From positions 37,842-101,841 of the forward strand of contig JAGCVH010000058.1 of the NCBI GenBank assembly GCA_017962495.1: a stretch of DNA of 64,000 bases. The letters run 5' to 3'. A model generated the notes under the pieces. It did not search any database and was not told the origin of the DNA. It was given only the letters and a program-made list of their open reading frames with translations. Both the position numbers and the translations under genes were made by a program. Source of the stretch: Bacteroidaceae bacterium (GTDB lineage: Bacteria > Bacteroidota > Bacteroidia > Bacteroidales > Bacteroidaceae). Below are positions 16,353 through 39,017 of this stretch, piece by piece. The first letter of the stretch is position 1, and every line of letters starts with the position of its first letter.

Positions 16353-18572
16353 TTACTTAGTGGGGAGGGGGAAGTACCAGTTCTTGGGGTTCTGGAGCTT
16401 ACCCAACAGGGCCGGGTCGCGACGTGCCACGCGAGAAGCGAGGTAGTTGGCATCGCCACGGCGGTGTGCCACACGCAGGAGGTCGAAGAAGCGGGTGCCT
16501 TCGAAGGCAAGCTCGAGGGCTTCCTCATCGACGATGAGGTCTTCGACACAGTCCTTCACGACGTCGTCGTAACTGCCGCTGTAGATGTCGGCCTTAGTGA
16601 GGGTGACACCGTAGTTCTCCTGTGCCTTCTTCGTGATCTGCTTCACATAGTCATAGACACTCTCCTTGTTCTTCACAAGAGGCACGGTACCGCATCCGTG
16701 GGTGTGGATGCCCTTGGTGAACTTGTCGTCGCCTTCGGCAGCAACAGACTTCGAACCAATGCCACGCTCGGTGAGTGAGGTGCGGTAGTAGATCTGCTCG
16801 GCAGCCATGTTACCATTGAGCTCCTCGAACGAGAAGTTGAGGAACGACGGACTGCGCTCTACCTCACGCTTGTCGAGGTAGTAGAGGACTGCCTGACAAC
16901 CATCGTCGGGGTAGTTCTCATAAGTGACGGCACGCCACTGGAGTGGAATTTGAGTTTCCTCATCAACGACGATAACAGAGTCGGCAATCAACTGATCGAT
17001 GTATGCAATAAGGGACTCACGGGTCGGACAAGTGGCATTTTCCATCCAGTCAGCGGGATACCATTCGTCATTGTAACGAGCTGCCCATGAACTATCGCGT
17101 GCTGCATAGTCTGGTGAATTGGGAACAGGATACCAGATATCGTTCTTGCAGAGTCCGTTCTTCAGGATGGCGAAGGCGTAGCTGGGATAGCCGGCACGGT
17201 TGAGGGCCTCGGCATAGCGCAGCCAGATCATGGACTTGCGGTAGATCATGTGTGCCACGGTGGAGAAGGAACCGGTGGGGTTGATCTTGCGGATGAACCA
17301 CTCGCGGTTGGTGAGTCCGTTCTCATACTCCACACGTTCCTCCTGTACCCAGTACTGGCGTGCGTCGCCAACGACGGTGTCGACAGTGAGGACAAGGTCG
17401 CCAACGGTGCTGCTGCTGGCACCTACGCAAATCTCGAACTGCTGTGCCTTGCACAGGTCGTAGTAGGCGTCGGATGCCATGAGCTGCTTGACATCGTACT
17501 GAGGACGGATGACAACGGAAGCGTTGGTGGTGGAGGTGGTGTCGTTGAGGTCGCTGGTGAGTACGGAGATTTCACTGTCGTAGCCATAGAGCTGGTTGAC
17601 ACCACGAAGCACGGTACCCCACAACTTGTTGGTGGAGGAGGGGATGCAGGTGACGGACTCGCGGTCGGAGGCGACAGCGCCAGTCTCGGTCCAGGGAATG
17701 TTACCCGTGTATCCGTAGTTGGGACGTTCCATGCCCTCGCCCTTGTAACCGTAGCAGATGTTGCGGTCGGGGAGTGCGCCACCGGGTACCATGAGACCCT
17801 GTCCCTGGTTGTTGGAGAGGTAGTCGTAGTAGTACTGCGCTGCCTTCTCACAGCTCTGGGGATCGCCCTTGGCGAGATAGAGGTCGCCGAGGATGAGGTT
17901 GAGGGGTATCATCGCCTTGGTGCTGTGACAGACATTCTTGTAGTTGTCGTACTGAGGAAGTCCGTAGAGCTGTTCGATGCGAAGTGACTTCTCGAGTTCG
18001 GGTGCGAGGCGATCGGCAAGATTGTCGATGCTGACCTTATCGGGATAGATCATGAAGGCGGTGATGTCGTCGGTGGTGAGCAGGGGCTCGGTGTAGAAGG
18101 GTACCTCACCATAGACCTGCACGAGCTGGAGATAGACCCATGCGCGGATGGCTGTCACCTGGGCGGCCTCCTTCAGCATGTAGGGCTGGAGGGTGCCGGT
18201 GGTGCGCAGCGTGTCGCAGTTTGCCAGATAGGCGTTGCAGGAGTTGATGATGTGGTAGTAGTCGCTGGCACGCAGGAAACGGCAGGTGCCGTCGGTGGCC
18301 TTAGACATGTCGAAGTCGAGGAGTGCCGTGATGGAATCGCTGACATAACCCGTACCGCTGACGAGTTCGCCACGGCATTCTCCCAGCACGATGTAGCGTT
18401 CGGCTACGTTCTGGAGCGACTTGACAATGCCCCAGTAGCTGTAAAGGGTGTCCTCTGCTATCTCGTAGCTGTGGCGCTCGCTGCTGGGCGAAAGCATGTC
18501 CTCGCACGACGTGAATACAGCGCCGAAGAGCATGCAGCTAATCAGTAAACTTATAATAGATGTCTTTTTCAT
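16353..18572 (-). CDS. SusD/RagB family surface lipoprotein (long form)
   Basis: A 739-residue SusD-like protein from the ATG at 18572 (MKKTSIISLL); upstream in-frame TTG/ATG codons give only MIMI. The signal peptide ends in the lipobox FTSC (C23) followed by EDM, an acidic surface-export type sequence. SusD-like features include AAQVTAIRAWVYLQLVQVYGEVPFYTEPL, MIWLRYAEALNRAGYPSYAFAILKNG and the C-terminal EEALELAFEGTRFFDLLRVAHRRGD. It is longer than the usual 500-600 residues, with extra sequence in the middle. It is the last gene of the seven-gene block and pairs with the SusC just upstream; together they should form one lid-and-channel importer. Confidence 0.93.
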   Translation of the reverse strand: MKKTSIISLLISCMLFGAVFTSCEDMLSPSSERHSYEIAEDTLYSYWGIVKSLQNVAERYIVLGECRGELVSGTGYVSDSITALLDFDMSKATDGTCRFLRASDYYHIINSCNAYLANCDTLRTTGTLQPYMLKEAAQVTAIRAWVYLQLVQVYGEVPFYTEPLLTTDDITAFMIYPDKVSIDNLADRLAPELEKSLRIEQLYGLPQYDNYKNVCHSTKAMIPLNLILGDLYLAKGDPQSCEKAAQYYYDYLSNNQGQGLMVPGGALPDRNICYGYKGEGMERPNYGYTGNIPWTETGAVASDRESVTCIPSSTNKLWGTVLRGVNQLYGYDSEISVLTSDLNDTTSTTNASVVIRPQYDVKQLMASDAYYDLCKAQQFEICVGASSSTVGDLVLTVDTVVGDARQYWVQEERVEYENGLTNREWFIRKINPTGSFSTVAHMIYRKSMIWLRYAEALNRAGYPSYAFAILKNGLCKNDIWYPVPNSPDYAARDSSWAARYNDEWYPADWMENATCPTRESLIAYIDQLIADSVIVVDEETQIPLQWRAVTYENYPDDGCQAVLYYLDKREVERSPSFLNFSFEELNGNMAAEQIYYRTSLTERGIGSKSVAAEGDDKFTKGIHTHGCGTVPLVKNKESVYDYVKQITKKAQENYGVTLTKADIYSGSYDDVVKDCVEDLIVDEEALELAFEGTRFFDLLRVAHRRGDANYLASRVARRDPALLGKLQNPKNWYFPLPTK

Positions 18573-18608
18573 AATCATTATCAATTATAAATTGTCAATG
18601 TCAATCGG

Positions 18609-21600
18609 TTACAGGTTGATGGAGAAACCGAGGTTGAAGCTGCGTCCGCTGGGGAGCAGACCGGTATCGACGCCCTGGTAAAGCACATTGTTGCGGCAGG
18701 ACATTTCGGGATCGGTGCCCAGGTAGCGGGTAATGGTCCAGAGGTTGTTGCCCTCAGCCCATATCTTCAGACCATGGAGCCATGAGTTGTTGTAAGGCAG
18801 GGTGTAGGTGAGGCGGACATTCTTGAGCTTAAGGTAGCTTCCGTCCTCAATCCAGCGGTCACTCATGCGTTCGTTGTTACGCCATCCGTCGTTGTCGGTG
18901 TAGCATGCACGGGGCAGGTCGGTCTGCTGGCCCTCATAGGTCCAGCGACGCAGGGTGGCAGTGGTCTGGTTGTAGGTGGTGTTGAGACCTTCGAGGATGC
19001 TGCGCTGGTAGTTGTAGATGTCGTTGCCGAGCGAATACTTCCAGTTGAGATCGAGACGAAGGTTCTTCCACGTGAGACTGGTGTAGAGGTTACCGTAGAT
19101 GTCGGGGTTGGGGTTGCCAATGACAACTCTGTCGCCATCGTCGATGACGCCGTCGCCATTCTGGTCAACGAAGCGTACATCACCTGCCTGGAAGTCGCGG
19201 TAGGGTGCCTCGACAAGTCCGGTAGGATACTTCAGGTAACCCATAGCGCCTGCCTGCGATGCAGTGGCATCGTCGGCAAGGATGCCGTTGGTCTTCCATC
19301 CGAAGAAACTGCCAGCAGCATAGCCAACGGCAGTGAGTACGTTCTCCTTGCCATAGACGCTGTTGAGTGAACCGTTGATGCTCTTCGTGAGGTTTCCGTT
19401 GACGTCACGAAGTTCGAAGTGGTTCTCCTCGGGCAGTGCGGTAATCTCGTTGTTGTAGTGGCCGAGGGTGGCTCCGAACTCCCACTTCCAGTCCTTCTTG
19501 TTGACGAGGACGGCGTTGGCGTTGAACTCGAAACCTGTGTTACGCATGGCACCCTCGTTGGCCCAATACTTCTGCATACCGGACACATAGGGGAGGTCCT
19601 TGACGGTGAGCAGATTGTCGATCTTGTGCCAGTAGAGGTCGACGCCGGCGTGGAGGCGATTCTTGAGGAATGAACCCTCGAGGCCTACGTTGTACTTCGT
19701 AACAGTTTCCCACTGTACGGTGCTGTTCTCGATGTTGGCAAGAACGAGGCCGACGGTGGTCTCCGTTACCTGCTGGCTCTCCCAATAGGTGCGGGCTGCG
19801 TAGTAGTCGATGTTGTCGTTACCACTCTGGTCGACACCGGCGGTGAGCTTCAGGTAGTTGACTCCTGTGTGGGACTTGAACCACTTCTCGTTGGTGAGAA
19901 CCCATCCGAGCTGGAGGCTCGGGAAGATGCCCCAGCTGACACCGGCAATCTGTACGCCGTCCTTCGTGTTGTCACCAAAGACACTGCTTGCCTGGCTGCT
20001 GACGGTGAGGTCGGCATAGTACTTGTGGGCATAGTTGTAAGAGGCATTGAAGTAGTAGGTCATGTCGATCCAGTTGTCCTTCGTACCGCCATAGTTGGCA
20101 TACTGCATGTTCTTGGCGAGGTTGGGCAACTTGTCGTTCTCGTTGTTGTAACCACGGAGGTAACTATAGGAGAAGCTGTAGTTGTTGTAGCGCCATCCGC
20201 CGAAGATGTCGATGTTGTGGGCTCCGTAGGTGTTTGCCCATTCGAGACGCAGGTCGTTGTTGAGCGTTGTCTCCTTGGTGAACTGGTTCTTGACAACGGA
20301 GGTGATGTTACCCAGGTCGGTCAGCATGTACTGTGTGGTACCGGCGATGGGGAGGAAGTACTTCTCGTTGTTGCGGTTCAGCTGATAGTTGAAGCGATCG
20401 CTGATGGAGAACTGCTTTGTGATTTGATACTTAGGACTCACGTTGATGTTGATCTGCGAGAGTTCGGCGTAGTTCTTGTTCTTACCCTTACCGTTGGCGA
20501 GAATCCAATAGGGATTGCGAAGACTCTCGTTGATACCCATCTTCTCGGGGAAGTTGAAGGGGTTCTGAATCCACGTGCTGCGGGTGTCGGAGGCATACTT
20601 ACCTGCATACTCCTTGGAGAGGAGCAGACCACCTGCATCATCGTCGTGGTAATAGGCGTAGGGGCTGATCATGGGGCTCTGTACGAGTCCGAGAACGTTG
20701 GTGCTACCGATGTTCTGCATGTCGTAGTTCTCGCTCCATCCGTTGTCAAGAATCTTGTAGCTGGTCTGGTTGTAAGCAATGTCGAGGCCAGTGGAAATCT
20801 TGTCGGTAATCTTGATGTCGGTGTTGAAGCGGAGGTTGAGACGGTTCATGTCGGTGTTCTTCAGCGTGGCGTCGGCCTTCGTGTAACCCAGCGACAGGGA
20901 GTACATACCCACTTCGTCACCACCTTCTACATTAATCTTATAGTTCTGGACGAAGGTGTTGCGATACATGTCCTTCTGCCAGTCGGTGTCGTTGTGGAAG
21001 ATGTTGTAGTAGTAGTTGCTAGGGTTGTCGTTGAGGAATGCCCAACGCTGTGCGTCGATGCCGTTGTCGGTACTCATGACGTTGACGTCGCGAACGGTGC
21101 TGGTGAGGTCGCCCAGATAGGTGCGATATTCCTTACCGTTGAGCATGCTGAGCTTCTTCGGTGTGAGCTCGGTACCACCATAGGCTCGGAAGTTGATCTT
21201 GGTGGTGAGGCTCTTACCGCGGCGAGTGGTGATGATGATGACACCGTTACCACCCTTGGCGCCGTAGAGGGCTGTACCGTTCTTCAGTACCTGGATGCTC
21301 TCGACATTTTCGGGATCGAGACCTGCGAGCAGATTGTTGTAATAGCCCTCGTGGAGGCTTGTACGTTCGTACTCGGGGTCGATGATGTTGCCGTCGATCA
21401 CTATCAGGGGCTGGGCATTGGCATTGAGGGAGTTGACGCCTCGGATGCTGAGGTAGGCACCCTGTCCGGGCAGACCACTGCGGGAGACGCTGTGGATGGA
21501 GCCGGCGAGGTGGTTCTCGATATCCGTCTCCACCGTGATGCTGCTGGTTTCGTCGAGCAGCAGTCCGTCGGTGGCAGTAATGCTGGTCTTTTCGGCATAG

Positions 21601-22046
21601 TAGTTCCGGAATGCATCGCTCAGCATGGAGGTGTTGGCGTCACGACCCGGCTTGATGGCAAGCTGCTGGGTAACGTAGCCTGGCACATTGAGATAGAGGG
21701 AGTGGACGAACACGGGAACTCTGATCTCGTAGGTTCCGTCCTCCTCAGTCAGTGTGGAGAACTTCTCGTATCCGAACGCCTGAACTCGTACACCACCAAG
21801 GGGCTGACCCGTGGCATTGTCAGTAATAAGACCTTTGACTGTCTTCATCTCGTAGAGCTTTTCGGCTTTCTCCTGCTCAGCCTTGCGCTTGTTGTAGATG
21901 ACTTTGGCCTGTTCTTCGGCCTCGATGTCCTCTTCAACTTCATCGGTTTGGGCAAAGGCTGGAGTGTAGCATAGGCCCGAAAGCATCATAAGGCACAGTC
22001 CTCTCCAGAGGATGTTGCGCACGATATTATAGCTTGTCTTTTTCAT
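18609..22046 (-). CDS. SusC/RagA family TonB-linked outer-membrane protein (second of two)
   Basis: A 1145-residue TonB-dependent importer. The signal peptide ends about residue 32 (CYTPAFAQ). An acidic/charged stretch (about 34-66: DEVEEDIEAEEQAKVIYNKR...), probably helical, follows. Then come a carboxypeptidase-regulatory-like domain (KTVKGLITDNATGQPLGGVRVQAFG), the plug (YLSIRGVNSLNANAQPLIVIDGNII, IQVLKNGTALYGAKGGNGVIIITTRRG), and the barrel ending RSFNLGFSINL. The SusD start lies 36 bp downstream. The charged stretch before the regulatory domain is not usual and differs from the other SusC here. The imported ligand is unknown. Confidence 0.95.
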   Translation of the reverse strand: MKKTSYNIVRNILWRGLCLMMLSGLCYTPAFAQTDEVEEDIEAEEQAKVIYNKRKAEQEKAEKLYEMKTVKGLITDNATGQPLGGVRVQAFGYEKFSTLTEEDGTYEIRVPVFVHSLYLNVPGYVTQQLAIKPGRDANTSMLSDAFRNYYAEKTSITATDGLLLDETSSITVETDIENHLAGSIHSVSRSGLPGQGAYLSIRGVNSLNANAQPLIVIDGNIIDPEYERTSLHEGYYNNLLAGLDPENVESIQVLKNGTALYGAKGGNGVIIITTRRGKSLTTKINFRAYGGTELTPKKLSMLNGKEYRTYLGDLTSTVRDVNVMSTDNGIDAQRWAFLNDNPSNYYYNIFHNDTDWQKDMYRNTFVQNYKINVEGGDEVGMYSLSLGYTKADATLKNTDMNRLNLRFNTDIKITDKISTGLDIAYNQTSYKILDNGWSENYDMQNIGSTNVLGLVQSPMISPYAYYHDDDAGGLLLSKEYAGKYASDTRSTWIQNPFNFPEKMGINESLRNPYWILANGKGKNKNYAELSQININVSPKYQITKQFSISDRFNYQLNRNNEKYFLPIAGTTQYMLTDLGNITSVVKNQFTKETTLNNDLRLEWANTYGAHNIDIFGGWRYNNYSFSYSYLRGYNNENDKLPNLAKNMQYANYGGTKDNWIDMTYYFNASYNYAHKYYADLTVSSQASSVFGDNTKDGVQIAGVSWGIFPSLQLGWVLTNEKWFKSHTGVNYLKLTAGVDQSGNDNIDYYAARTYWESQQVTETTVGLVLANIENSTVQWETVTKYNVGLEGSFLKNRLHAGVDLYWHKIDNLLTVKDLPYVSGMQKYWANEGAMRNTGFEFNANAVLVNKKDWKWEFGATLGHYNNEITALPEENHFELRDVNGNLTKSINGSLNSVYGKENVLTAVGYAAGSFFGWKTNGILADDATASQAGAMGYLKYPTGLVEAPYRDFQAGDVRFVDQNGDGVIDDGDRVVIGNPNPDIYGNLYTSLTWKNLRLDLNWKYSLGNDIYNYQRSILEGLNTTYNQTTATLRRWTYEGQQTDLPRACYTDNDGWRNNERMSDRWIEDGSYLKLKNVRLTYTLPYNNSWLHGLKIWAEGNNLWTITRYLGTDPEMSCRNNVLYQGVDTGLLPSGRSFNLGFSINL

Positions 22047-22051
22047 AGTCT

Positions 22052-23920
22052 TTAGTCTTCTTTACTTCTAAGAATGAAACGGTCGATGCAGAACGAGTTG
22101 CTGTAGCCCTCGCGGCGCTCCTTACTCGTTGTCTTCGTGGTAAGGGAGATCGTGGGGTAGCACTGGCGCATGTTCTTGTAACTATAGGGGAACTCGAAGT
22201 CCGGGAACAGCAGGATGGTGTCGACCTTCTCACCCAGATACTCAATGACATCCGTCGACAGACTGGCTTCGTTGCCATTGGCGTTGCCGTTGCAGTAGTT
22301 CAGGGTGGCAACAATCTTGTGTTTCACGGTGTCACCAACGATGGTGTCGGAACTGGTGATGTAGAAGTCGGGAACCATGACAACATAGATGTCATACTTG
22401 CCACTCATAACATCGCTTTCGCGATTCTCACCATGGGTACCCACCAACTTAAAGTCGAACTTGGGGTTACCAGAGGCACTGCTGGGCCAAATGTAGTAGA
22501 AGTTGTCCTCACTGACACGGCCTACACTGTCGATCCATGCCTCGGCAGCAGCATTGCTGAATGGCACAGCCTGGTAGTTACCCGTTGCCTTACCGGTGTT
22601 GAAGAAGCTGCGATAGCCCACTTCAATGTGGAGGTCGGGCTGGTAGAGCTTGAGGGGGAAGTCCCACTCGTCCTTGATGATGGCAACGCCGTTGCTGACG
22701 TCGACCTGCTTACCCTCGAGGAGGCTGCTCTTGTCCCAGTTGGCATCGCTGCGAAGCGTGTCACCAAAGGTGTTGAGGAAGTATTCGGCACTCTGGCCCT
22801 TTTCTGCCATGAAGTCGTCGAGCTTCCAGCGACCTATCTGACCTCCTGCGTTAGGCTGGAAGTGGAGGTTGAAGCAAAGCGGGGAAACAATGTCCATGGC
22901 AATGTTCTTCTCCTTCAGAGAGTCGGGGTTGGTGACGTCGCGATAGAGGGTACTCTTGCTGTCGCCACCCAGATCAAACTTCTCCTTGTCGACATACTTC
23001 TCGGCGTAGTTGTAGAGGCGCTCCAGCTTCTGGTGTGCCTTCTCCCAAGCCTCGTCGGTGGGGTAGAGCATGATGAAGGTGGAGTCCTCACCCACCAGGT
23101 TGGCACCGAAACTTTCGTCATAGGTGAGGTACTGGTCGGTGTTGTTCTGGCTGGGGAAAGCGTGGGTCTGACGGAACATGGTGTTGGTGATGTTGTATAC
23201 GCTGTCGACATAGGTGGGGTTACCATTGATGTCGGGGTTACCCTCAACACTCCTGTTCTCATCGAAGTACGTGGTGTCGTTTTCTACCACGAAGTCGTGG
23301 AAAATACCAACATTGTTGGCAGATGCGTTACGTTCGTCCTTCAGGTATTCGTAGAGATTGTACTTGAAGGGGAGGGGAGCAGGCATGATGTGCAGTGTAC
23401 CATTGGTGGCAGCGATGTTGTAAGGCTTCATCGGGATGAACTGCATTGTGAAATCATCCTTGTTAAACTCCAGCTTCTTGCCGTTTAGCATTGCCAGGGT
23501 GTCGATGCCACCACCAGTGGCGACATGGCGATAGAGGGCAATGCTGTTTGCCATCAGCTGCTGCTGAACGGTGAACCCATTGGTCTCTGCCATCTCCATC
23601 CACTCCTGAAATTCGGCATCGGTGAAGGCACTGTTTTCAGGCACCCATGCTGTAATCAGCATAGAGCCGTTGAGCATGTCCTTGAAGGTGTAGTTGTCCT
23701 GAGGACGAGTCTCGTCGCGGTAGTATGTCGATTTCTCGGCAATCTGCTTGAAGCGGCTCAGCTCAGGCCTTTCGCAGATGAGTTCCCAAAGCGTCTTGTT
23801 GGCAAAGGTACCCTCATCTATTTTGTCGTAGTGGTCGTCCCACGTCTCGGTGCAACTTGGAATAGCCAGTGTGGCAAATCCCAGCAGTGCTGCTCCGATG
23901 TATTTATTAATCCTTTTCAT
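22052..23920 (-). CDS. Fasciclin (FAS1) domain lipoprotein, 622 residues
   Basis: Start set at ATG 23920 (MKRINKYIGAALLG); the lipobox is IPSC with C23, followed by TETWDD, an acidic surface-export signal. FAS1 core motifs are visible twice: ITAWVPENSAFTDAEF (about residues 89-104) and TFIMLYPTDEAWEKA (about 285). GTLHIMPAP between them matches the end of a FAS1 unit. The C-terminal third is beta-rich and may be a separate binding domain. FAS1 domains mediate adhesion or ligand binding elsewhere. Its position directly before the second SusC suggests an accessory surface-binding protein for that importer. It sits 5 bp from the SusC start. Confidence 0.85.
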   Translation of the reverse strand: MKRINKYIGAALLGFATLAIPSCTETWDDHYDKIDEGTFANKTLWELICERPELSRFKQIAEKSTYYRDETRPQDNYTFKDMLNGSMLITAWVPENSAFTDAEFQEWMEMAETNGFTVQQQLMANSIALYRHVATGGGIDTLAMLNGKKLEFNKDDFTMQFIPMKPYNIAATNGTLHIMPAPLPFKYNLYEYLKDERNASANNVGIFHDFVVENDTTYFDENRSVEGNPDINGNPTYVDSVYNITNTMFRQTHAFPSQNNTDQYLTYDESFGANLVGEDSTFIMLYPTDEAWEKAHQKLERLYNYAEKYVDKEKFDLGGDSKSTLYRDVTNPDSLKEKNIAMDIVSPLCFNLHFQPNAGGQIGRWKLDDFMAEKGQSAEYFLNTFGDTLRSDANWDKSSLLEGKQVDVSNGVAIIKDEWDFPLKLYQPDLHIEVGYRSFFNTGKATGNYQAVPFSNAAAEAWIDSVGRVSEDNFYYIWPSSASGNPKFDFKLVGTHGENRESDVMSGKYDIYVVMVPDFYITSSDTIVGDTVKHKIVATLNYCNGNANGNEASLSTDVIEYLGEKVDTILLFPDFEFPYSYKNMRQCYPTISLTTKTTSKERREGYSNSFCIDRFILRSKED

Positions 23921-23963
23921 ATTGTTATCAATTATCAATTGTCAATAATCAATTTCATAGAGG

Positions 23964-26141: not shown

Positions 26142-26162
26142 GACTTAGTTCCTCCTTTCGAC

Positions 26163-28136
26163 TTAATCATATAGAGATTTGTTCCATACGGGATTCTGCT
26201 CCAGATTGCCGTTGGAGGCCTGAATCTCTTTATAATAAATAAGGTTGTATAATCCGTAGCGGTTCTTCATACGATTGATGAGAGTCTTGCGCTTTTCAGT
26301 GCTGTACTCACCTGTCATCAAATCGTTAACCATTGCTTTCACACCAGCAAGACCGCTATTGATGTTGTTCTCCTCTGTCCATTCGCGTGGGTCTCTTGTT
26401 CCGTCAGGACCACCTGCGTGGCGTTCGGCATAGCGAACAAGGTCGAACCAGCGCTTTCCTTCACCCAGGAACTCGAGCTGGCGTTCGTTGAGAACTGCCG
26501 TCTCATAGTTGCGAACCTTATCGGAAATACCTGGGTCGATGGCATTACCTAATGTGGCAAGAGTAGCAGTATTGAAGAACCTTGTACCATTATCGTCAGT
26601 TACGTTCTCCAGAGGCTGTGAACTGTCGTTTCTGTCATCGTTGCAGAACCAACGGCGATGGATAGCGTTGACGTAGCGCATGGCTTCGGCACCGTCTCCG
26701 AGAATTGCCATTGCCTCGGCTTTCTGTAACATAACATCGCTGATGCGATAGATAATCCAGTTGCAGTAGTTCATAGCATTGTTGATGTCAACCTTGATGC
26801 TGCTGCACTGATGGTCGTCTGGCATCGACATGTTAAATTCACCACCTGACCACTTGAAGCAGAAGTATCCGGGAAGTGACATGGATTCACCCATGGCTTG
26901 GTTCCATGCCGAGAACCACATACGGCTGTCACGAGGACGAGCACTGGCACTTCCTGAGTATATGCGAGCCAACGTACCATCACTTACTGCCAAGTGAGTG
27001 CGGGTTGCATAGCCCCAGATACCTCCATTGCCACCACTTGAGCCGTTTAGGCTATGGGTACGGCCCTCGCTTTGGCTGAACTGCAACTCAAAGATGCTTT
27101 CCTCACTGTTGCCACCAAAGATTTCACGGAAGGCAATCAGGCTTGGTGGGTTGCCACTGGAGAAGTTCTCGAAGCGATTCTTGTAGAGAGAAACGTTTTC
27201 CAAACCATAGTTTAAGGTTTCTGACAATGCATCGCCATAATTTGCGTTTCTGCGATCGTTCTGGATGGCAAGTGTAGAAAGGGCAAGGTCGGCATATTCG
27301 ATAGCCTTCTGATAGTCACCACGAATAGTGTGGGCTACATAGCCAGTGCCTTTCGTAGGCTTGTTGTTAATGTAAACGGTATCCTCCTGATCGAGATTGT
27401 TGTATCTGCCGTGACGAAGTGATGCACGCCACAGATACATATCGCTTAGCATAGCATAAAGGGCAGGGTTGGTGATGAGGCCCTTGGTGTCGGCTTTTTG
27501 CGAGAAACGATTACGGGCCTGTCCTGCTACTTCCTCAACATCGATGATGAGGGAGTCGAGGATTACCAACTGATTGGTGGCGCCAAAGCGAACTACTTCA
27601 GAGTCGTTGTTGATAACCTTCGTGGTGTAGGGAACATCCTTGAAGGCGCGAATCAGATAGAAGTAGTTCAGGGCACGAAGTCCGGTAATCTCTGCCTTCA
27701 TCTGTCGCCACTCGGCATTGGTGAACTGTTTGTCCCTCTCCAATACCTCGGCACCATGCTGCAGTACCTTATTACAATAGTTAATAGTCTTATAGAAGCC
27801 TTCCCAATCGAAATAGGTGTTGGCGGAGTCGCGTTCGATATTAGCATTGCGAATCTCACTGTAAAGGCTCACAACAGCAGTAGCTTGGTCGCCACTGTAT
27901 TGTGTGTATGAGTCGGAACGGAGGTCGCCCCAGAGTGCCATGCTAGATATACAACTGCACATCTGCTTGTAGGCGGCGTAGCGCACACCCTCAAGGTCGT
28001 TCTTGTCCTCCCAGTAGTTTTCCTCGACAATCTTGTCTTGGGGATAGATGGTGAGCCAATCCTGACATGAAGATAATGTCCAGGCGACAAAACCCAGGAC
28101 GAGGGCCATCTTTATGGAATTATGATATCTTTTCAT
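26163..28136 (-). CDS. SusD/RagB family surface lipoprotein
   Basis: A 657-residue SusD-like protein with signal peptide and lipobox LSSC (C24). The mature N-terminus QDWLTIYPQDKIVEENYWEDKNDLEG is classic SusD. Other hallmarks are ITGLRALNYFYLIRAFKDVPYTTKVI (the TPR-forming helices), DVMLQKAEAMAILGDGAEAMRYVNAIHRR and NERQLEFLGEGKRWFDLVRYAERH. It starts 11 bp after the first SusC and should form the extracellular lid of that channel. Confidence 0.96.
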   Translation of the reverse strand: MKRYHNSIKMALVLGFVAWTLSSCQDWLTIYPQDKIVEENYWEDKNDLEGVRYAAYKQMCSCISSMALWGDLRSDSYTQYSGDQATAVVSLYSEIRNANIERDSANTYFDWEGFYKTINYCNKVLQHGAEVLERDKQFTNAEWRQMKAEITGLRALNYFYLIRAFKDVPYTTKVINNDSEVVRFGATNQLVILDSLIIDVEEVAGQARNRFSQKADTKGLITNPALYAMLSDMYLWRASLRHGRYNNLDQEDTVYINNKPTKGTGYVAHTIRGDYQKAIEYADLALSTLAIQNDRRNANYGDALSETLNYGLENVSLYKNRFENFSSGNPPSLIAFREIFGGNSEESIFELQFSQSEGRTHSLNGSSGGNGGIWGYATRTHLAVSDGTLARIYSGSASARPRDSRMWFSAWNQAMGESMSLPGYFCFKWSGGEFNMSMPDDHQCSSIKVDINNAMNYCNWIIYRISDVMLQKAEAMAILGDGAEAMRYVNAIHRRWFCNDDRNDSSQPLENVTDDNGTRFFNTATLATLGNAIDPGISDKVRNYETAVLNERQLEFLGEGKRWFDLVRYAERHAGGPDGTRDPREWTEENNINSGLAGVKAMVNDLMTGEYSTEKRKTLINRMKNRYGLYNLIYYKEIQASNGNLEQNPVWNKSLYD

Positions 28137-28147
28137 TGTAGTGCGTT

Positions 28148-31100
28148 TTAGAATCCAACATTAACACTGCAGGTAAATGAACGACGTACGGGGGTCTTAC
28201 TGTTGTCGACAGCAATACCAAAACCACCAGGACTAACTTCGGGGTCAACACCGGTGTACTTCGACCAGCAGAATACATTGTTGATGGTAGCAGAGAGGTA
28301 GAGCTGACGAACGCCAATCTTCTTCAGTTTCTTGGCATCGAAGTCATACTTCAGCTGGATGTACTGCAGACGCAGATAGTTTCCATCCTCAATGTAGCGG
28401 TCTGATACAAGCGAGTTGTAACTTGCATAGTTGTTGACACCTGTCAGAGCACGTGGAATCTCAGTGATGTCGCCATTCTTGCGCCAGCGCCATGTTGTAG
28501 CATAGCTCTGGTTGGTGATGGTACTCATGCTTTCGTAACGGCTCTTAGCCAAATTCAAAATCTGGTTACCCATACGGAAGTTGAAGGAGGCGTTCAGAGA
28601 GAAGCGTCCATAGAAAAGGTTGATACCAAAACCACCATAGAGTTTGGGGTTGGAGTTACCCAGGTATACAACGTCGTATCGGTCGATAGATCCATCATGG
28701 TTGATGTCCTCGTAGATTGCATCACCACCTTGGAACTGATAGCGGCTACCCTCGCTGTAGCAGTAGTACATGGGGAGGGGGTTACCCTTGGCATCGGTTA
28801 GCATGTTGCCGTTGGCGTCGAAGGCCAGAGGACAGGTTGCGTCCTCACCACGGCGTGAAGCTGCTGCAGCGGTGTTGATAGCATAGTCGCGATACCAATT
28901 ACCATTGGCATCCTGACTATAGTGATAACCATCACCAAGAGCTCTGGCTTCGTCGGCGGTCTCTGCATTGCGATATCCTCCGTTTCCGTTGGGAACGCTT
29001 TCAGCATATCCGTAAGCCTTGAAGGTAGCGTTGTCGTATCCATTATGATTGTAGTCGTAGCGGTAAACACCCTTTGACTTCAAACCGTAGATGGAACCCA
29101 GTGCATTGTGAATCTGCACACGGGTCTGGTAGGCAAAGTTTGTGGGATTCCAGGTATCGTCGCCATTCAGGTTCTCGAGCAACAGGGGATCCATTTCCTC
29201 AACCTCGTTGAAGTTCTGTGAAACATTACCACGCAACTTCATTGAGAACTTGCCAACCTTGGCAAACTTGGCGGTAGAACCGTTCAACTCCCAACCCTTG
29301 TTACGCATGACACCGCCGTTGACCCAGTTCAGAGTGGCAAAACCATTGGCGCTGGGGATGCGGAGGCCTGACATCAACAGGTCGGTTGTCTTCTTATTAT
29401 ATACCTCAAATTCGAAGGTAAACAAGTCGTCGAGCAAACCTAAGTTGAAACCGAGGTTCCACTGAGTTGTCTTTTCCCACTTCAGTTCGGGCAGAGAAAG
29501 GTTCTCTGGGATAACGATGGTGTGTCCGTTGTAGTAACCACCCGATGCATAACGGTTGTACTGGTTACCACCTGCGGCACCGGGGTTACCTGTGACGCCC
29601 CATGTGGGACGGAAGGCTAACATGCTGATGACTTTGCGTGTCTTCTCCATGAACTTTTCGTCGCTGATGTTCCAGCGTGCTCCGATGGAGGGGAAGGTTC
29701 CGTACTTGTGGGAACGTCCGAAGTTGGTACGTCCGTCGGTACGTAATGTAAAGTCGAGTGAGTATTTACTCTTGTAGGAGTAGTGCAACTGCTCGAAGAA
29801 GCTGTGACTGCGAAATTCGCCGTTTGATGCGCTGGCAGCATCGAGAAGAGCCACAACGGTGGGGTCGGTGATGCCGTTAGGAACGTTCCAAAGACCCATG
29901 TTCTGACGAGAACTGGTACCTGTGCTCATTTCGAAACGGAACATACCAGAGAGGCTGTGGTCCACATTCTTGAAGTGAGAATAGTAACGCAAGTCGTGGC
30001 GAGTACTGAAGTCCAGTGACTTATATTCATTATTAGTAACCACATTACGCTGGTTGCTGGTGAGGTTGGATTTGTTATCGCCACCCCAAACCCAAGGCAT
30101 GGTGTGCAGCTCTGCAGGAACATAGGTGTCGTCGCTGGTGTTGTTGATGTTCAGCTGTACGTCACCCACATAGTTCAACTGATGCTGGTCAGGATCCTTA
30201 CCCCACAACTTATAGGTGACATCGAACTGCGGTGTCAAGCTATATTGCTTCTTCTCGTGCCATGCGAGTTTCGACCATGCAACGGGGTTACCGTTGGTAA
30301 ACATCTGGCGCAATTCCCAAGAGGTCATTGTTCCATCGTTGCGAATCTCACTTGTACTTGAATTACTCCAGTTTGCTGCCAGAGGAAGCATGTTGAAGTA
30401 GTTTCCTGTCAGGTTACCCATTGCGTCGTACTCGTATATGCTCATGTTAGGCATGGCATTGTAGGCACGGTCCATGGGGTTGGTTTCAGCGTTCTGGTGG
30501 TTTGTGGTAAACGTCATTTGCATCGTAGCGCGGAACTGGATACGGTCGCTGACGTTGTAGTCAAGTGTTGTGGACTCGGTGAACTGATCCATCTTCTGTC
30601 CGATAACGACACCAGTCGACTTGTTGTAACCGGCACCAATGCGGAATGTGGCTTTCTCACCACCACCATCGAGACCGATGAAGTAGCGGTGTTCCTTACC
30701 AAACTGCTTCACTGCATCCAGCCAATCGGTGTTGTGACTATAATGATTATAGATGTAAGGAACTTCAGTGTTGTAGTCCAACTCGTAGATGTTGGTCTGG
30801 CGCTGAGTGGGATTGAAGAAGGCTTCCTTCTGCATCATAGTGTATCCGTCACCATTCAGCATCTTGTATCCTTCTGGTTGCCATGTTCCGTTGAACTTGT
30901 ACATGAAGTTGACGCGGGTAGGACCACGACGACCTCTGCGTAACTTAATTTCGATAACACCATTAGAACCACGCACACCCCACTTTGCCGATGATGCGGC
31001 GTCTTTCAGGACGGTGATGCTTTCGATATCCTCTGGGTTAACGTTCAGCAGGGTAGAGAACTGCTCCTCGTTGTCCATGTCCTCGAAGTTGACGGGCTGG

Positions 31101-31708
31101 GCATCGTCGGGAAGTTCAAAGATGTGGTCGTTCACAACAATCAGAGGTTGTGCATTACCATTAATGGTAGAAGTACCGCGAAGACGCATGGTGGTACCCG
31201 AACCCAGGTTTCCAGAGTTGGCAACAATGTCAAGACCGGCAATCTGTCCTTGCAGGGCTTGGTCGACAGACTCGAATGCCAAACCTTCCAGGTCATCCAT
31301 CTTCATGGAGCTGACGGCACCGGCATATTCACGCTGTGGAATGTCAAGACCCGTGGTGGGGGCTTTCTTCTTGGCTGTGACGACAGCTTCCTTCATGACT
31401 TTCACAGCTTCTGCCATATTCACCTTGTAGACGGTCTTGTTAATCTGATACGTCTGGTCTTTGTATCCCATGCCGTGGAAGACCAGCTTGTTCTTCTGGT
31501 TCTTCACTGTCATGGTGAAGTTACCGTTGGCGTCGGTGATGGCACTGCTGACGATACGATTGTTGCTATCCAACTCCTTGACTTGAATGCCAGGGATGCC
31601 ACCGAACTCGTCAGAAACCGTACCGCTGATACGGCTTATCTGTGCGCTTGCAGGCAGTGAGAATAGGACAACTGCCCAAAGCATTATGACTTTGATATAT
31701 TTATTCAT
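28148..31708 (-). CDS. SusC/RagA family TonB-linked outer-membrane protein (first of two)
   Basis: A 1186-residue TonB-dependent importer. The signal peptide ends at about ASAQ (residue 23), and a carboxypeptidase-regulatory-like domain (ISGTVSDEFGGIPGIQVKELD) runs to about residue 100. The plug is then marked by MRLRGTSTINGNAQPLIVVNDHIF and ITVLKDAASSAKWGVRGSNGVIEI. The long barrel has many YxYxF-type strands and ends RRSFTCSVNVGF. It lacks the charged N-terminal stretch of the other SusC. It lies 12 bp after the large FAS1 gene and 11 bp before its SusD. Confidence 0.96.
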   Translation of the reverse strand: MNKYIKVIMLWAVVLFSLPASAQISRISGTVSDEFGGIPGIQVKELDSNNRIVSSAITDANGNFTMTVKNQKNKLVFHGMGYKDQTYQINKTVYKVNMAEAVKVMKEAVVTAKKKAPTTGLDIPQREYAGAVSSMKMDDLEGLAFESVDQALQGQIAGLDIVANSGNLGSGTTMRLRGTSTINGNAQPLIVVNDHIFELPDDAQPVNFEDMDNEEQFSTLLNVNPEDIESITVLKDAASSAKWGVRGSNGVIEIKLRRGRRGPTRVNFMYKFNGTWQPEGYKMLNGDGYTMMQKEAFFNPTQRQTNIYELDYNTEVPYIYNHYSHNTDWLDAVKQFGKEHRYFIGLDGGGEKATFRIGAGYNKSTGVVIGQKMDQFTESTTLDYNVSDRIQFRATMQMTFTTNHQNAETNPMDRAYNAMPNMSIYEYDAMGNLTGNYFNMLPLAANWSNSSTSEIRNDGTMTSWELRQMFTNGNPVAWSKLAWHEKKQYSLTPQFDVTYKLWGKDPDQHQLNYVGDVQLNINNTSDDTYVPAELHTMPWVWGGDNKSNLTSNQRNVVTNNEYKSLDFSTRHDLRYYSHFKNVDHSLSGMFRFEMSTGTSSRQNMGLWNVPNGITDPTVVALLDAASASNGEFRSHSFFEQLHYSYKSKYSLDFTLRTDGRTNFGRSHKYGTFPSIGARWNISDEKFMEKTRKVISMLAFRPTWGVTGNPGAAGGNQYNRYASGGYYNGHTIVIPENLSLPELKWEKTTQWNLGFNLGLLDDLFTFEFEVYNKKTTDLLMSGLRIPSANGFATLNWVNGGVMRNKGWELNGSTAKFAKVGKFSMKLRGNVSQNFNEVEEMDPLLLENLNGDDTWNPTNFAYQTRVQIHNALGSIYGLKSKGVYRYDYNHNGYDNATFKAYGYAESVPNGNGGYRNAETADEARALGDGYHYSQDANGNWYRDYAINTAAAASRRGEDATCPLAFDANGNMLTDAKGNPLPMYYCYSEGSRYQFQGGDAIYEDINHDGSIDRYDVVYLGNSNPKLYGGFGINLFYGRFSLNASFNFRMGNQILNLAKSRYESMSTITNQSYATTWRWRKNGDITEIPRALTGVNNYASYNSLVSDRYIEDGNYLRLQYIQLKYDFDAKKLKKIGVRQLYLSATINNVFCWSKYTGVDPEVSPGGFGIAVDNSKTPVRRSFTCSVNVGF

Positions 31709-31720
31709 GGCTTGTCGGTT

Positions 31721-34708
31721 TTATTGGATTGCAAAACGTGTCATATACTTCTTAGCCTCGCCTGAGTTCCCGAAGTCGGGAATGTCGGCATGATAGAGTG
31801 GGGTAGGAATCTGATGGATGACAGCAAAGCTTGATCCATCGATGGTGATTCCATTCATAGTAGTCTGTTTGGCAGGTGTCTTACTACATGATACATCACG
31901 TGCAAGAATGTTGACATTGCCTTCAGCCGTGATCCAGTCGCCACCATTGGCGTCTTTAACTTGCAGTACACCAGATTCCGGACGTTGCATGTTGATTTTG
32001 CAGAACAGGCCCTTCACGTTGTCGTAACTTGCGGTAACGAATTCTGTGCTGGGAACGATGCTCTTATCAACAAACATGCTGTTGTCGGCGAAGTGGTAAC
32101 GAATGAAGTTAATAAGGTAAGTAATCTTGGCTTGCAGGCGCAGACTATCGGCGGTGTTGAGAAGGTGCATGTCTGCGGAGTCCTTGTCGCATTCCTCATA
32201 GTCGGCAGCAATGTCCTCCCAAGTAGGCAGACCCTTCGAAATGGCATCCTGAACGGCATCGTTGGTGGGTGCCAGGATGGTGTAACGATAGTTGTTGAAG
32301 AACTGAATGTTGAAGTCTGGACCTTTATCATCGATAAAGATTTGATACTTCTTCAGCTCTGCCTTCTGCTGAGTCGTTGACAAGTGAGTCTCATCAACCA
32401 GACCGCAAGCACGAATGATTTCTTCATTTACTTCACACAACTCGTAGAAATTGTTGTAGGTATAGTCCTCTTCGAAGTTTCCGTCATTGGTGAAGATGCT
32501 GTATACACTATGGCTTGCAGGAACAACGGGGCTATCGAGAATATAAGTGGTACCGTTCGACATGTTTTGTTCGTCGGTAACAATATTCTTTTGTACTCCG
32601 TGAAGTTCAGTGTAAGCATTTTTGTTAGTTGCACTGATGCTACCTTCGATACCTGCTTCCTCGTTTTCAAGCTGGAATCCACCTTGTACACTTACCACGT
32701 GTCCTCCCTCGCGATAAACCTTCACGGGAGAACCGTTCTTGGCGAGATACCATTCATCGATACCACTATTGATTTCATCGACACCGTCGAGCACTACAGT
32801 GTGGCTCTCCAGAATATCCTTCAGACGGTTGGTGATTTCACCGTTAGCCATCTTCTCAAGGTTGTATTCTTGTGCGAGTTCGCCAATCGTGGCATTGTAG
32901 CTGTACATCTTATAAGAGATGGGGAATGAACCGCTCTTGTAGTAGAGCTGCAACATACGACTCTTCTGGCTCTTGAAGCTGGTGGGGTCGTAGTAATATT
33001 TCATACCTTCGTCGCTGGGCAGGAAGAATGCGAAGCGGCTCTGCATGGCCTTCAGGTAGGCGTAGTAGTTCAAACCCATATAGTCGGTAGCACTGGTAGA
33101 ACCATTGTAGATGGCCCAGCGCAATACCAGGTTCGTGTTGGAGATGTATGCCGGAGCAGCAACAGAGGTATAGTCTGCAGGACCATACACCTTATCGGTA
33201 ATGTAAATCATACCATTGGTGGCCAACATTGTGCCAGTGATGTGGTCGATATCCTCGGGATAGAAAATCTGCTCCTGGGCATCGTCACGCAACGACGACA
33301 TCTTGCTGGGAACAGAACCCGTGAAACTCGGGAACATTACTACGTTAAGCAAAGAACGCAACGTGGAGATGGGTATCTGGTCAATTTGACGATACAACTC
33401 TTCCAACGTTGTGGGGCGCTCGTATGGAATCTCCTGTGAAGTTCCTTCCTTCATGTAGTAGGTACGGATAAGTTGCCATCCACCACCGCCTTCGGTGAAG
33501 TATTTCCACATGGTATCGTCATCGGGAACGAACATTGACGCCATGTCGTATTGGGGTGCTGTAGCGGAACTGTTACTCCAATTCGAGTCATCGAAAGCAT
33601 AGGCATTCCATGCGGGGTCGAACTTCAACGTTACATCCGTACTTTGTGAATCACGGAACTTCTCACCATTGGGGTCGGTGTTCAGTGCTCTGTGTCCATA
33701 GCTGAGATCAGAGAAGTAACGCTTGCTGAAGATGGAGTCGCTCCATGTTATACCACGGGAAGCCATCAGGTTCTTGTAGGCTTCTGTCACCGTGTTGTTG
33801 TAGAAAGGTGCACTCCAACGGTCGAGCATGTGGCTGAAGATGTTAGTCTTGCCATTGGTGCGAAGCAACTCTGCCATGTTGGGAAGAGGCTTAATCACCT
33901 TCTCGGTCTTGTTGATGTAACCATTCTCTGCAACACCGTCCTTCTCCAGCAACAAAGCGTCGTAGATGTGTACGTCGCTGGTCTTGCGCTCACGTCCCAT
34001 GAAGATGGCGAAGTCCTCGTCAGTAACGTTGTTCTTCGTCAGATGTTCATTGGTGAAGTGAAGCATCATGGTCAAAGAAGAGTCGTTCACCAGATACAGA
34101 CCTTTACCGCCATTTTCGCTACGGAAGCGCCACCAGTAGTCTTTCTCCTGATTGCCAACATTGTAGTTCACGGGCAGTGTGTTGCCATCGAGGTAGGTGA
34201 TGGTGTCTGTTGCCTCTACATCGGTGTAGCGACGCATGAAATCACCTCGCGAACTGATGTCGCTTGTACTCGAGGAGAGGTTCTCCATTACGATGGCGTT
34301 GTTGAGCATGCTGGTGTGAATCAGCAGCTTCTTTTGGCTCACACTCAGTTTTTCGTAGCTTGTAGCCGTGTGCCAAGGATCGGTCTCGGGCAACTTCGCG
34401 TTTTGCTCGAAGAAGGCCTTCCAGGCATCGTCGTCGGCAACGAACACTGTTTTTGAACCAGTTCGTGACAGCACCTCAGTGAGGGGGCGCGCATTAGTGG
34501 GATTGACATCAGGGTCACCGAGCAGGCGCAGGTAGTTGGTATACTTACCAGTACTTTCCAGGCCTTCGTAGATGCTGGTCGTTAGCCATGAAGGCTTTTC
34601 GTCGTCCAGCGTGTACTCGTCCTTGCACGATGATGTCAGACCGCAGGCTGCCAGCAGGAGAATGCCGTAAGTGGCTTTCCTACTCATTTTGCTTAAACGG
34701 TTTTCCAT
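31721..34708 (-). CDS. Large fasciclin (FAS1) repeat lipoprotein, 995 residues
   Basis: First gene of the SusCD/FAS1 block. The signal peptide (MSRKATYGILLLAACGLTSSC) has lipobox TSSC with C28 and is followed by KDEYTLDDE, a strongly acidic surface-export sequence. At least three FAS1 motifs are visible: KTVFVADDDAWKAFF (about residue 86), RFAFFLPSDEGMKYYYD (about 557) and YTILAPTNDAVQDAI (about 807), and DDDTMWKYF near 390 may mark a fourth. The protein would therefore be a chain of FAS1 units on the cell surface. Binding or adhesion is the likely role; no catalytic motif was seen. Confidence 0.85.
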   Translation of the reverse strand: MENRLSKMSRKATYGILLLAACGLTSSCKDEYTLDDEKPSWLTTSIYEGLESTGKYTNYLRLLGDPDVNPTNARPLTEVLSRTGSKTVFVADDDAWKAFFEQNAKLPETDPWHTATSYEKLSVSQKKLLIHTSMLNNAIVMENLSSSTSDISSRGDFMRRYTDVEATDTITYLDGNTLPVNYNVGNQEKDYWWRFRSENGGKGLYLVNDSSLTMMLHFTNEHLTKNNVTDEDFAIFMGRERKTSDVHIYDALLLEKDGVAENGYINKTEKVIKPLPNMAELLRTNGKTNIFSHMLDRWSAPFYNNTVTEAYKNLMASRGITWSDSIFSKRYFSDLSYGHRALNTDPNGEKFRDSQSTDVTLKFDPAWNAYAFDDSNWSNSSATAPQYDMASMFVPDDDTMWKYFTEGGGGWQLIRTYYMKEGTSQEIPYERPTTLEELYRQIDQIPISTLRSLLNVVMFPSFTGSVPSKMSSLRDDAQEQIFYPEDIDHITGTMLATNGMIYITDKVYGPADYTSVAAPAYISNTNLVLRWAIYNGSTSATDYMGLNYYAYLKAMQSRFAFFLPSDEGMKYYYDPTSFKSQKSRMLQLYYKSGSFPISYKMYSYNATIGELAQEYNLEKMANGEITNRLKDILESHTVVLDGVDEINSGIDEWYLAKNGSPVKVYREGGHVVSVQGGFQLENEEAGIEGSISATNKNAYTELHGVQKNIVTDEQNMSNGTTYILDSPVVPASHSVYSIFTNDGNFEEDYTYNNFYELCEVNEEIIRACGLVDETHLSTTQQKAELKKYQIFIDDKGPDFNIQFFNNYRYTILAPTNDAVQDAISKGLPTWEDIAADYEECDKDSADMHLLNTADSLRLQAKITYLINFIRYHFADNSMFVDKSIVPSTEFVTASYDNVKGLFCKINMQRPESGVLQVKDANGGDWITAEGNVNILARDVSCSKTPAKQTTMNGITIDGSSFAVIHQIPTPLYHADIPDFGNSGEAKKYMTRFAIQ

Positions 34709-34843: not shown

Positions 34844-34851
34844 CAAATATA
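34844..34851 (-). promoter_or_regulatory. Candidate -7 element for the FAS1/SusCD block
   Basis: TATATTTG on the minus strand (34851-34844) matches TAnnTTTG and is followed by TAG, as in the GH43 promoter. No TTTG is found at 19-20 bp upstream, so either the -33 is degenerate or another factor assists. The leader to the ATG at 34708 would be about 130 nt. The rest of the 413-bp gap is AT-rich with no ORF. Confidence 0.5.
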
Positions 34852-35064: not shown

Positions 35065-35099
35065 AAAAAATGCCCCCATGGCATTCACCATGAGGGCAT
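35065..35099 (-). terminator. Intrinsic terminator of the GH43-GH128 unit
   Basis: ATGCCCCCATGG (35070-35081) and CCATGAGGGCAT (35088-35099) form a 12-bp stem with one mismatch and a 6-base loop. On the minus strand it is followed by a run of six T. It lies 22 bp after the GH128 stop and separates this unit from the FAS1/SusCD block. Confidence 0.9.
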
Positions 35100-37877: not shown

Positions 37878-39017
37878 TTATTTTAGGAATTTCTGTATAA
37901 TCTTGGCCTGAGCCTTATATGCCTTTGCAGAGGCTTTTCCTTTCAGCACTTGTTGAGTCTTGTCGAGTAAAGCCTTGCGTCCGTCGAGTTGTTCCAGAGT
38001 GAAAGTGGGAACGCTGCGTGTGCGCAGTTCCTGATTGGCTTGCATGAGAGCATCCCATGACTGCAGCAGTTCCAATTCGTCCTTTGTAATGGCAATTACC
38101 GTGCCGTGACGCGGAGTGAAGGCTCCTGTGGTTTGTGTGTCTTGTACTTGCTTGAAGGTACGCAGATCCGTCGATTTGCAGAACTGGTAATGTCCGCTGG
38201 TGTAGCAATCGTACATGAGCACCCAAGTGCCATCGAACAGACGGAAGACTCCGCTTCCCTCAACGGCCTTGTTCGTGTCTTGGCACATACCGGGTTGCAG
38301 TTCCCATTTCGACTTGTCGTGCAGAACGGGAGTGATGAATTGCTTAATGCCTTTCTGGCGTTGTCCTTCGGTCTTGAAGAAGACGTGGTACAAACCGTCG
38401 TCGTCTCGCACGATATCGGTGTCGATGCTGGCGTTCTCTACGTCGAAGAGAACCTTGGGCTCACCCTCCAGGTCGCTGAAGTCGCTATTGGCATAGGCGT
38501 AGTAAACACGGTCGTAAGGGCATGAACCATCGTCGGTGAGGATGGAGAAGTATACCATGTACTTGCCAGCTTCTTTATCAAAGATGGTTTGAGGCGCCCA
38601 CACGCGCGTTACGTGCTCGAACATTGTTCCCTTATAGCGTTCGGGGAAGTGGATGGTGTGGTGTTGCCAGTGGATGAGGTCACGACTGCGCAAGAGCACC
38701 ATTCCACGGTTGCTGCTCCATCCGAGGCTCGAACGCATGTCGGTCACTACCTGATAGAACCATCCGTCCTCACCGCGCAGGATGTGGGGGTCGCGTACGC
38801 ACTTTGTCAATGCTATCGAGTCGCTTGCAATCACGGGTAGTCCGTTGTTCATGGGAGTGTAGTTCCATCCGTCGTTGCTCAGGGCATAACAAATCTGTTC
38901 TTGCTCAGGTGCATTGCCCGTGAAATAGGTAAACAGGTAGGCTACATAGTTCTTGTTGGATGCTGCGTTGCACAACATGCTCAGCAACAGGGCCAGTGTG
39001 AAGGTAAGTTTTCTCAT
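37878..39017 (-). CDS. GH43-like five-bladed propeller glycosidase
   Basis: A 379-residue exported protein with signal peptide ending about CNAAS (residue 20). The GH43-type catalytic set is visible: RDPHIL with base D76, the RVWAPQ motif at 138-143, IDTDIVRDDDG with modulating Asp199, and VEGSGVF with candidate acid E253. GH43 enzymes mostly remove arabinose, xylose or galactose from plant polysaccharides; the actual substrate is not deducible. The GH128-like gene starts 5 bp downstream, so the two form an operon with its own promoter and terminator. Confidence 0.8.
   Translation of the reverse strand: MRKLTFTLALLLSMLCNAASNKNYVAYLFTYFTGNAPEQEQICYALSNDGWNYTPMNNGLPVIASDSIALTKCVRDPHILRGEDGWFYQVVTDMRSSLGWSSNRGMVLLRSRDLIHWQHHTIHFPERYKGTMFEHVTRVWAPQTIFDKEAGKYMVYFSILTDDGSCPYDRVYYAYANSDFSDLEGEPKVLFDVENASIDTDIVRDDDGLYHVFFKTEGQRQKGIKQFITPVLHDKSKWELQPGMCQDTNKAVEGSGVFRLFDGTWVLMYDCYTSGHYQFCKSTDLRTFKQVQDTQTTGAFTPRHGTVIAITKDELELLQSWDALMQANQELRTRSVPTFTLEQLDGRKALLDKTQQVLKGKASAKAYKAQAKIIQKFLK

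Follow-up and report, generated by a model that had tools for sequence, protein, structure and literature searches.

A conserved seven-gene locus of Bacteroidota couples three fasciclin-domain lipoproteins to two SusCD pairs and probably serves glycan uptake

What do fasciclin (FAS1) domains, known mostly from animal matrix and plant cell-wall proteins, do among the importer genes of a Bacteroidaceae bacterium? The question is raised by positions 16353 to 34708 of a 64,000-nucleotide stretch of contig JAGCVH010000058.1 (assembly GCA_017962495.1; 2.9 Mb in 104 contigs). We refer to the whole stretch of DNA that was analysed as the window. The locus encodes three lipoproteins with FAS1 repeats, here called FASA, FASB and FASC, and two pairs of a SusC channel and a SusD lipoprotein (SusCD pairs). 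We consider it quite likely that this module forms the importing core of a system for polysaccharide utilisation with an unusual, conserved layout, in which the FAS1 lipoproteins replace proteins of the SusE/F type. Its parts belong to known families, but the kind of glycan uptake system that they would form has probably not been described before.

The seven genes lie on the minus strand and are transcribed from 34708 to 16353 in the order FASA-SusC1-SusD1-FASB-FASC-SusC2-SusD2, with intergenic gaps of 12, 11, 21, 43, 5 and 36 bp. Open reading frames (ORFs) and profile matches confirmed the order, the single strand and the coordinates given in a first-pass annotation of this DNA. Its proposal of an operon-like unit with short gaps was borne out by the spacing (5–43 bp) and by the conserved order, and we infer that the genes would form one transcript. 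Because the arrangement is conserved among relatives, a chance origin is excluded. SusC1 (28148..31708, 1186 aa) and SusC2 (18609..22046, 1145 aa) are TonB-dependent channels, each with a plug domain, that score 624.9 and 595.5 bits against TIGR04056 (cut-off 368). Each is followed directly by its own lipobox-bearing SusD. SusD1 (26163..28136, 657 aa) is a SusD/RagB lipoprotein matching PF07980 (75.5 bits, cut-off 23.1) and PF14322 (50.4 bits), and SusD2 (16353..18572, about 739 aa) matches PF07980 at 37 bits. The SusD2 ORF opens at a TTG at 18584, and the start reading MKKTS is at 18572.

FASA (31721..34708, 995 aa), FASB (23964..26141, 725 aa) and FASC (22052..23920, 622 aa counted from ATG) score barely above the cut-off of 22 for the Pfam fasciclin family PF02469 (23.4, 25.4 and 23.3 bits). 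The FAS1 assignment stands despite these marginal scores because the family profiles match the FAS1 structures of periostin and TGFBI (ig-h3), for FASA in five stretches at E 3.4e-23 and for FASB at E 8e-16. In a profile-profile alignment using the first FAS1 domain of FASB, successive repeats numbered four in FASA (about residues 43–138, 275–514, 530–735 and 735–975), two in FASB and two in FASC. Periostin and TGFBI have four FAS1 repeats, as FASA does in this alignment. The module proteins differ from them in being bacterial lipoproteins of an importer operon and, for FASB and FASC, in combining two repeats with a jelly-roll-like C-terminal domain. At an E value of 1, none of the three proteins matched a Pfam family of the SusE/F type, and it is the FAS1 proteins that hold that position. 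A phylum-wide PF02469 search (matches in 112 of 247 genomes) was set aside for counting modules, as it returned mostly 170–220 aa proteins of another kind. A PF02469 search of the window's own genome matched only a second module copy; the window copies were missed because their scores lie near the cut-off.

The C-terminal domain of FASB spans about residues 520–725. Across the final ~200 residues of 21 FASB family members, six matched the domain of unknown function DUF5108 (PF17133; best 5.6e-07), six weakly matched the delta-endotoxin C domain (best 1.6e-04) and one weakly matched CBM35 (0.013); the window FASB C-terminus itself matched no family in the domain search, DUF5108 included. The FASB C-termini reached PDB 7ehg 'MiXBM' at 0.0023, and the FASC C-terminus is weakly related to that of FASB by profile-profile alignment. 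We infer from these matches, which are weak or to unnamed families, that both C-termini could be galactose-binding-like jelly-rolls, carbohydrate-binding in look. A search of 198 phylum genomes for DUF5108 gave a single match (G387:C1:1376267-1376497); it falls inside a module FASB gene, so DUF5108 may be the FASB C-terminal domain.

All five lipoproteins carry lipoboxes, as the first-pass annotation had noted. The acidic export residues that it had also assigned to all five are clear in FASA (C-KDE) and FASB (C-KED), where they are mostly retained among orthologues. For the other three the assignment holds only loosely, when compared with the Bacteroidota surface-lipoprotein export signals described in PMC5080379.

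We assessed how widely the module occurs. A FASB search matched 59 of 60 sampled relatives of the same genus, as well as the own genome, and none of 40 genomes of other families. With a FASA profile, 99 of 101 genus genomes were matched, the two others being G005 and G020. Sixteen genus loci were laid out in addition to the window; the seven-gene order was uninterrupted in 15 of them (the other, L049, has FASB doubled), or in 14 of 15 distinct loci if L038 and L053 are, as they appear to be, one contig. The chromosomal place is mostly the same across the genus, since MiaA recurs on the upstream side (9 of 11 genus loci). The genome of the window holds a second complete but divergent module copy (G000:C65:11173-28771; L032, 1174-18771). 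Genus genomes also carry solo FASB-like proteins, sometimes in tandem (L031:9784-11913, L045:7287-9422, L046:7591-12182 and L055–L059). The FASB search gave up to 11 scored matches per genome, with further candidates unscored, and no module SusC or SusD lay adjacent.

Beyond the genus, the FASA profile matched 22 of 295 genomes of the order, and 20 loci from 15 of them were taken for layout comparison; six genomes with weak FASA matches (G128, G197, G238, G257, G288 and G299) are outside that set. This order-wide search matched none of three genomes from other genera of the window's own family. A wider FASA profile matched 86 of 296 phylum genomes, mostly in part, and from this search seven full-length FASA loci in six further genomes and two partial loci were laid out. 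All seven full-length FASA loci outside the order have the whole module. Across the 29 loci of other families, the order was uninterrupted in 19 and collinear up to the end of the contig or fetched piece in four (L137, L140, L144 and L145). In another four (L126, L128, L129 and L138) the genes are rearranged, FASB is missing from its place or SusD1 is split, and L153 and L154 show a six-gene form, FAS1-SusC-SusD-FAS1-SusC-SusD, with a single FAS1 gene between the SusCD pairs. Because loci were picked by their FASA gene, these counts mean order given FASA. The split SusD1 consists of two ORFs of 427 and 118 aa (L129:10887-12584), perhaps through a frame break or an assembly error. L126, L183 and L184 (G168:C7:83000-132500) belong to two nearby module sets, where the gene of a hybrid two-component regulator is flanked by two FASA genes.

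The near-universal presence of the module in the genus, mostly at one chromosomal place, would also suit a housekeeping function at the outer membrane, such as the assembly or quality control of surface proteins. The distribution of FASA in the order is patchy, the gene can be multi-copy, and in several lineages it lies among carbohydrate-active enzyme (CAZyme) genes, which leaves a housekeeping role highly improbable. The Bacteroidota BAM complex does have extracellular lipoprotein canopies, but in the accessible part of PMC12611786 BamG is a FadL-type barrel and BamH and BamM are not described as FAS1 proteins. On this comparison a BAM-complex reading of the module was set aside.

The layout comparison upheld the earlier suggestion that a FAS1 gene precedes each SusC as a conserved rule of module loci, and FAS1 genes stayed beside SusCD genes in relatives within and outside the genus. 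As a general rule for FAS1 genes it fails: in a small sample of 12 non-module FAS1 loci, taken from the matches of the wider FASA profile, none adjoined SusCD, and the nearest SusD and SusC lay 3.7 kb (L190) and 4.5 kb (L187) away. The SusC and SusD models used here were built on module sequences, and very distant members may escape them.

The seven genes appear to have been inherited together. A tree of 80 SusC proteins, inferred with a quick method, SH-aLRT support only and six other SusC rows as outgroup, placed SusC1 (37 rows, support 100) and SusC2 (33 rows, support 99) in one clade each. The two labels had been assigned by module profiles (>750 bits). The two distinct SusCD pairs of the first-pass annotation are thus real in that SusC1 and SusC2 form separate clades. 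The branching within the two clades is largely mirrored. In each of them the six-gene form, perhaps the older layout, is the sister group of the seven-gene modules. SusC1 and SusC2 of the second copy in the own genome group with modules of another family, f111, and not with those of the window, so the histories of the two copies are separate. L140 (G118:C445), from a genome of this order, nests in SusC1 among loci of another family group, which suggests that the module has passed from one order to another. Over 25 loci, the distance matrices of the seven proteins were correlated at r 0.81–0.94, and none of 2000 permutations reached the observed value for the four pairs tested, although no control of unlinked proteins was included and shared descent alone would yield the same. 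Judged from the sequences, this co-divergence is a sign of co-inheritance, not of physical contact, and together with the SusC clades it points to an old co-inherited module.

Alternatively, the FAS1 chains could form an adhesion machine that binds feed particles, microbes or host matrix, with SusCD pairs only loosely related to it in function. We regard this as unlikely. The solved structures best matched by the FASA and FASB profiles are periostin and TGFBI, the genus has solo FASB-like proteins away from SusCD, and the 12 non-module FAS1 loci do not adjoin SusCD, all of which speaks for adhesion; in the module, however, the FAS1 genes keep a fixed order with the two SusCD pairs from family to family and co-diverge with them, and enzymes and, in some lineages, regulators accompany the set.

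These enzymes are best described from the window. The statement of the first-pass annotation that no glycosidase lies inside the module is literally correct, but the picture of a locus without enzymes is not, because two glycosidase-like genes adjoin it upstream on the same strand (35122–39017). The first encodes a five-bladed-propeller glycosidase of 379 aa (37878..39017, minus strand) resembling glycoside hydrolase family 43 (GH43; PF04616, 48.1 bits, cut-off 32.2). It also matches GH32N (PF00251, 39.0 bits, cut-off 22.1) and its nearest solved structures are beta-fructosidases (8e-4), so the enzyme may be GH43 or GH32-like. The motifs RDPH, IDTDI and VEG are invariant in 12 aligned rows, and the gene is upstream in all 11 orthologous genus loci.

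The second gene encodes a GH128-like protein of 916 aa (35122..37872, minus strand), with a phmmer match of 9.9e-07 to PDB 6ub0 Glyco_hydro_cc, one of the series 6uaq–6ufz that we take to be GH family 128. It resembles these in its catalytic core (1e-6) and in the conserved glutamates of NEP and SEW. N276-E277-P278 and E366-W367 are invariant in 11 aligned rows, and E277 and E366 are presumably the catalytic glutamates. The window protein fails to reach PF11790 at E 1, and its homologue in L132 passes at 6.3e-25. It differs from the GH128 proteins in a long N-terminal stretch (about 200 residues before the catalytic core) and a weak H-type lectin match after the core, and its C-terminal tail looks type-IX-secretion-like as judged by eye. 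A search of 12 genus genomes found the gene at the locus in 11 (in G037 one ORF separates it from FASA). Of 18 control genomes that the FASB or FASA searches had shown without a module match, 2 gave a match to it.

At other loci, genes for glycan-degrading enzymes recur near the module. Relatives of the GH43-like gene lie in module flanks of G279, G283, G138 and G605 and beside the second copy in the own genome. The module of G361 is surrounded by GH115, a SASA esterase, two GH28, GH88, two GH2, GH106 and a rhamnogalacturonan lyase of polysaccharide lyase family 4 (PL4), and the GH128-like gene of G353 has a PL11 rhamnogalacturonan lyase next to it. GH51, GH2, GH30 and GH43 members, an alginate-lyase-family protein and lectin-type domains neighbour further loci, as do a primase, a phenylalanyl-tRNA synthetase and a CotH protein outside the CAZymes. 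Regulators of the hybrid two-component system (HTCS) type occur as a whole protein in L126 and as propeller pieces in L137 and L143. The ligand proposed by the first-pass annotation, host matrix or protein-linked glycan, is not favoured by these linked genes, which point rather to plant cell-wall glycans. The ligand is probably plant-derived, and our best guess for the substrate is pectic rhamnogalacturonan, arabinan or arabinogalactan.

The same neighbours bear on whether the module could be a RagAB-type importer of peptides or glycopeptides whose FAS1 proteins capture protein ligands. RagAB-type SusCD pairs import peptides and FAS1 domains often bind proteins, and no peptidase gene would be needed if the peptides came from outside. 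Against these general considerations, 40 neighbour proteins of other loci comprise recurrent glycosidases, lyases and lectin-type domains and no peptidase family, and peptidase M28 accounts for 2 of 69 flanking proteins (25 of 131 families listed). We therefore consider peptide import improbable.

Under the glycan-uptake reading, surface or secreted enzymes would cut a branched plant cell-wall glycan. FASA, FASB and FASC on the outer membrane would retain these fragments by means of the jelly-roll-like C-termini of FASB and FASC, of FAS1 surfaces, or of both, filling the place of surface glycan-binding proteins of the SusE/F type. Each SusD would then close over its own SusC, TonB would power import, and two kinds of fragment would enter through the two channels. 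A bolder and distinctly more tentative version has all seven proteins in one outer-membrane complex, a 'double utilisome' in which FAS1 chains (eight repeats per set) would bridge the two dissimilar SusCD channels and serve as the glycan-binding scaffold, while the channels import two fragments of one branched polymer at once; we doubt that it is correct in full.

Besides the shared descent that could account for the co-divergence, several observations weigh against glycan uptake or its assignment to pectin. FAS1 domains are better known for adhesion and protein binding. The signals of FASC (C-TETWDD), SusD1 (C-QDW) and SusD2 (C-EDM) fit surface export loosely. Among the 30 window proteins scanned there was no pectin lyase, GH28 or GH88/105, and no HTCS or anti-sigma gene was seen next to the module among the window proteins scanned; because the GH43-like and GH128-like genes are the only enzyme genes linked at the window, the substrate in this genus is uncertain. 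One genus genome (G022) has no GH128-like gene, and across 21 module genomes outside the genus the gene was beside FASA in three (G283, G203 and G279, as the sole match of the genome), within about 10 kb in two (G353 and G171, the match covering the first 548 of 916 positions), elsewhere in six (G138, G168, G387, G605, G375 and G556) and not found in ten. The family tallies of the flanks, of which the 25 commonest were listed (of 131 at class level), are mixed. The class-level flanks (69 proteins) include among the families listed GH2, GH28, GH88, GH106, GH95 and oligogalacturonate lyase, partly from G361 again, and also GTPases and thioredoxin-like proteins; the order-level flanks (63 proteins) include Laminin-G, GH43, GH51, GH67, GH2 and GH28, and also Mur ligases. 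Because the tallies have no matched control of other SusCD loci, the leaning towards pectin and arabinose is only suggestive.

We compared the module with known systems. With the starch utilisation system (Sus) and the polysaccharide utilisation loci of the SusCD type, it shares the ordered SusC/SusD pairs, adjacent lipoproteins and glycosidase-family genes and, in some lineages, HTCS regulators. It differs in that one conserved unit combines two SusCD pairs unlike each other, that three FAS1 lipoproteins stand in for SusE/F-type proteins, and that its enzymes lie outside the seven-gene core. The module would thus work like a SusCD-type system and has the core features of one, without a SusE/F-type protein and, at the window, without an adjacent regulator. 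It may also resemble utilisomes and pectin loci with several SusCD pairs, in that several surface lipoproteins are expected on SusC; FAS1 proteins are not known from either. Searches of open-licence PubMed Central text, which were partly noisy, returned among the matches listed no description of FAS1 lipoproteins coupled to SusCD. The available portion of PMC10199937 reports SusCD and a FAS1 protein in one genome and mentions no linkage. If the glycan-uptake reading is correct, FAS1 domains gain a defined role in the capture of nutrients by bacteria, and there are Bacteroidota in which two different SusCD channels are inherited and operated as a single unit. A near-universal but unlabelled locus of a large, apparently uncultured rumen genus would become a testable uptake system, and the seven-gene order offers a marker for finding the module in cultivable Bacteroidia.

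Signals at the unit borders bear on how the enzyme genes and the module are transcribed. Upstream of the GH43-like gene, a pattern scan found a match to a promoter of the Bacteroidota type, TTTG-N19-TATATTTG (39077..39107, minus strand); we take TATATTTG to be the -7 box of the Bacteroidota consensus. The full pattern had three matches in the window against a chance mean of 0.96, mildly above chance (8 of 100 shuffles reach three). The stop codon of the GH128-like gene is followed, at a distance of 22 bp, by a terminator-like hairpin of 13 pairs (7 G-C) with TTTTT behind it (35070..35099, minus strand; -22.1 kcal/mol), and a further TATATTTG 143 bp before FASA (34844..34851, minus strand) is a possible -7 box of the seven-gene operon. 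Over the whole region, terminator-like sites were at chance level (17 found, 15.7 expected) and the promoter scan gave chance numbers, and only sites at unit borders were used for the reading. The corresponding gap was compared in 11 orthologous loci, which are related sequences; the near-duplicate L051 and the duplicate L053 had been dropped beforehand, the gap of L062 was cut at an antisense ORF, and L067 has no GH128-like gene. TANNTTTG occurs in 10 of the 11 gaps (first-order Markov mean 2.2, maximum 7 in 500 trials), and a hairpin of at least -13 kcal/mol strength with a T-rich tail in seven (weak in two, none in two; scored without a shuffled control). The hairpin, the TATATTTG before FASA and the promoter match suggest two units, so the GH43-like and GH128-like genes probably form a transcription unit separate from the seven-gene operon.

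Profile scans of the window proteins also placed the locus in its surroundings. Upstream of the two enzyme genes the order is PBP1A, MiaA and LpxA/LpxC. Downstream of the module, in opposite orientation, are a ComEC-like gene, Rpe, an extracytoplasmic-function (ECF) sigma factor and Fmt. The ECF sigma gene (13329-13943, plus strand) lies 2.4 kb from the module on the opposite strand, with no neighbouring anti-sigma gene among the scanned proteins. The nearest named record to the window FASB is the metagenome-assembled genome RUG14659 (94% identical), whose RUG prefix presumably stands for rumen, and further named FASB matches carry titles naming yak rumen or omasum and red deer.

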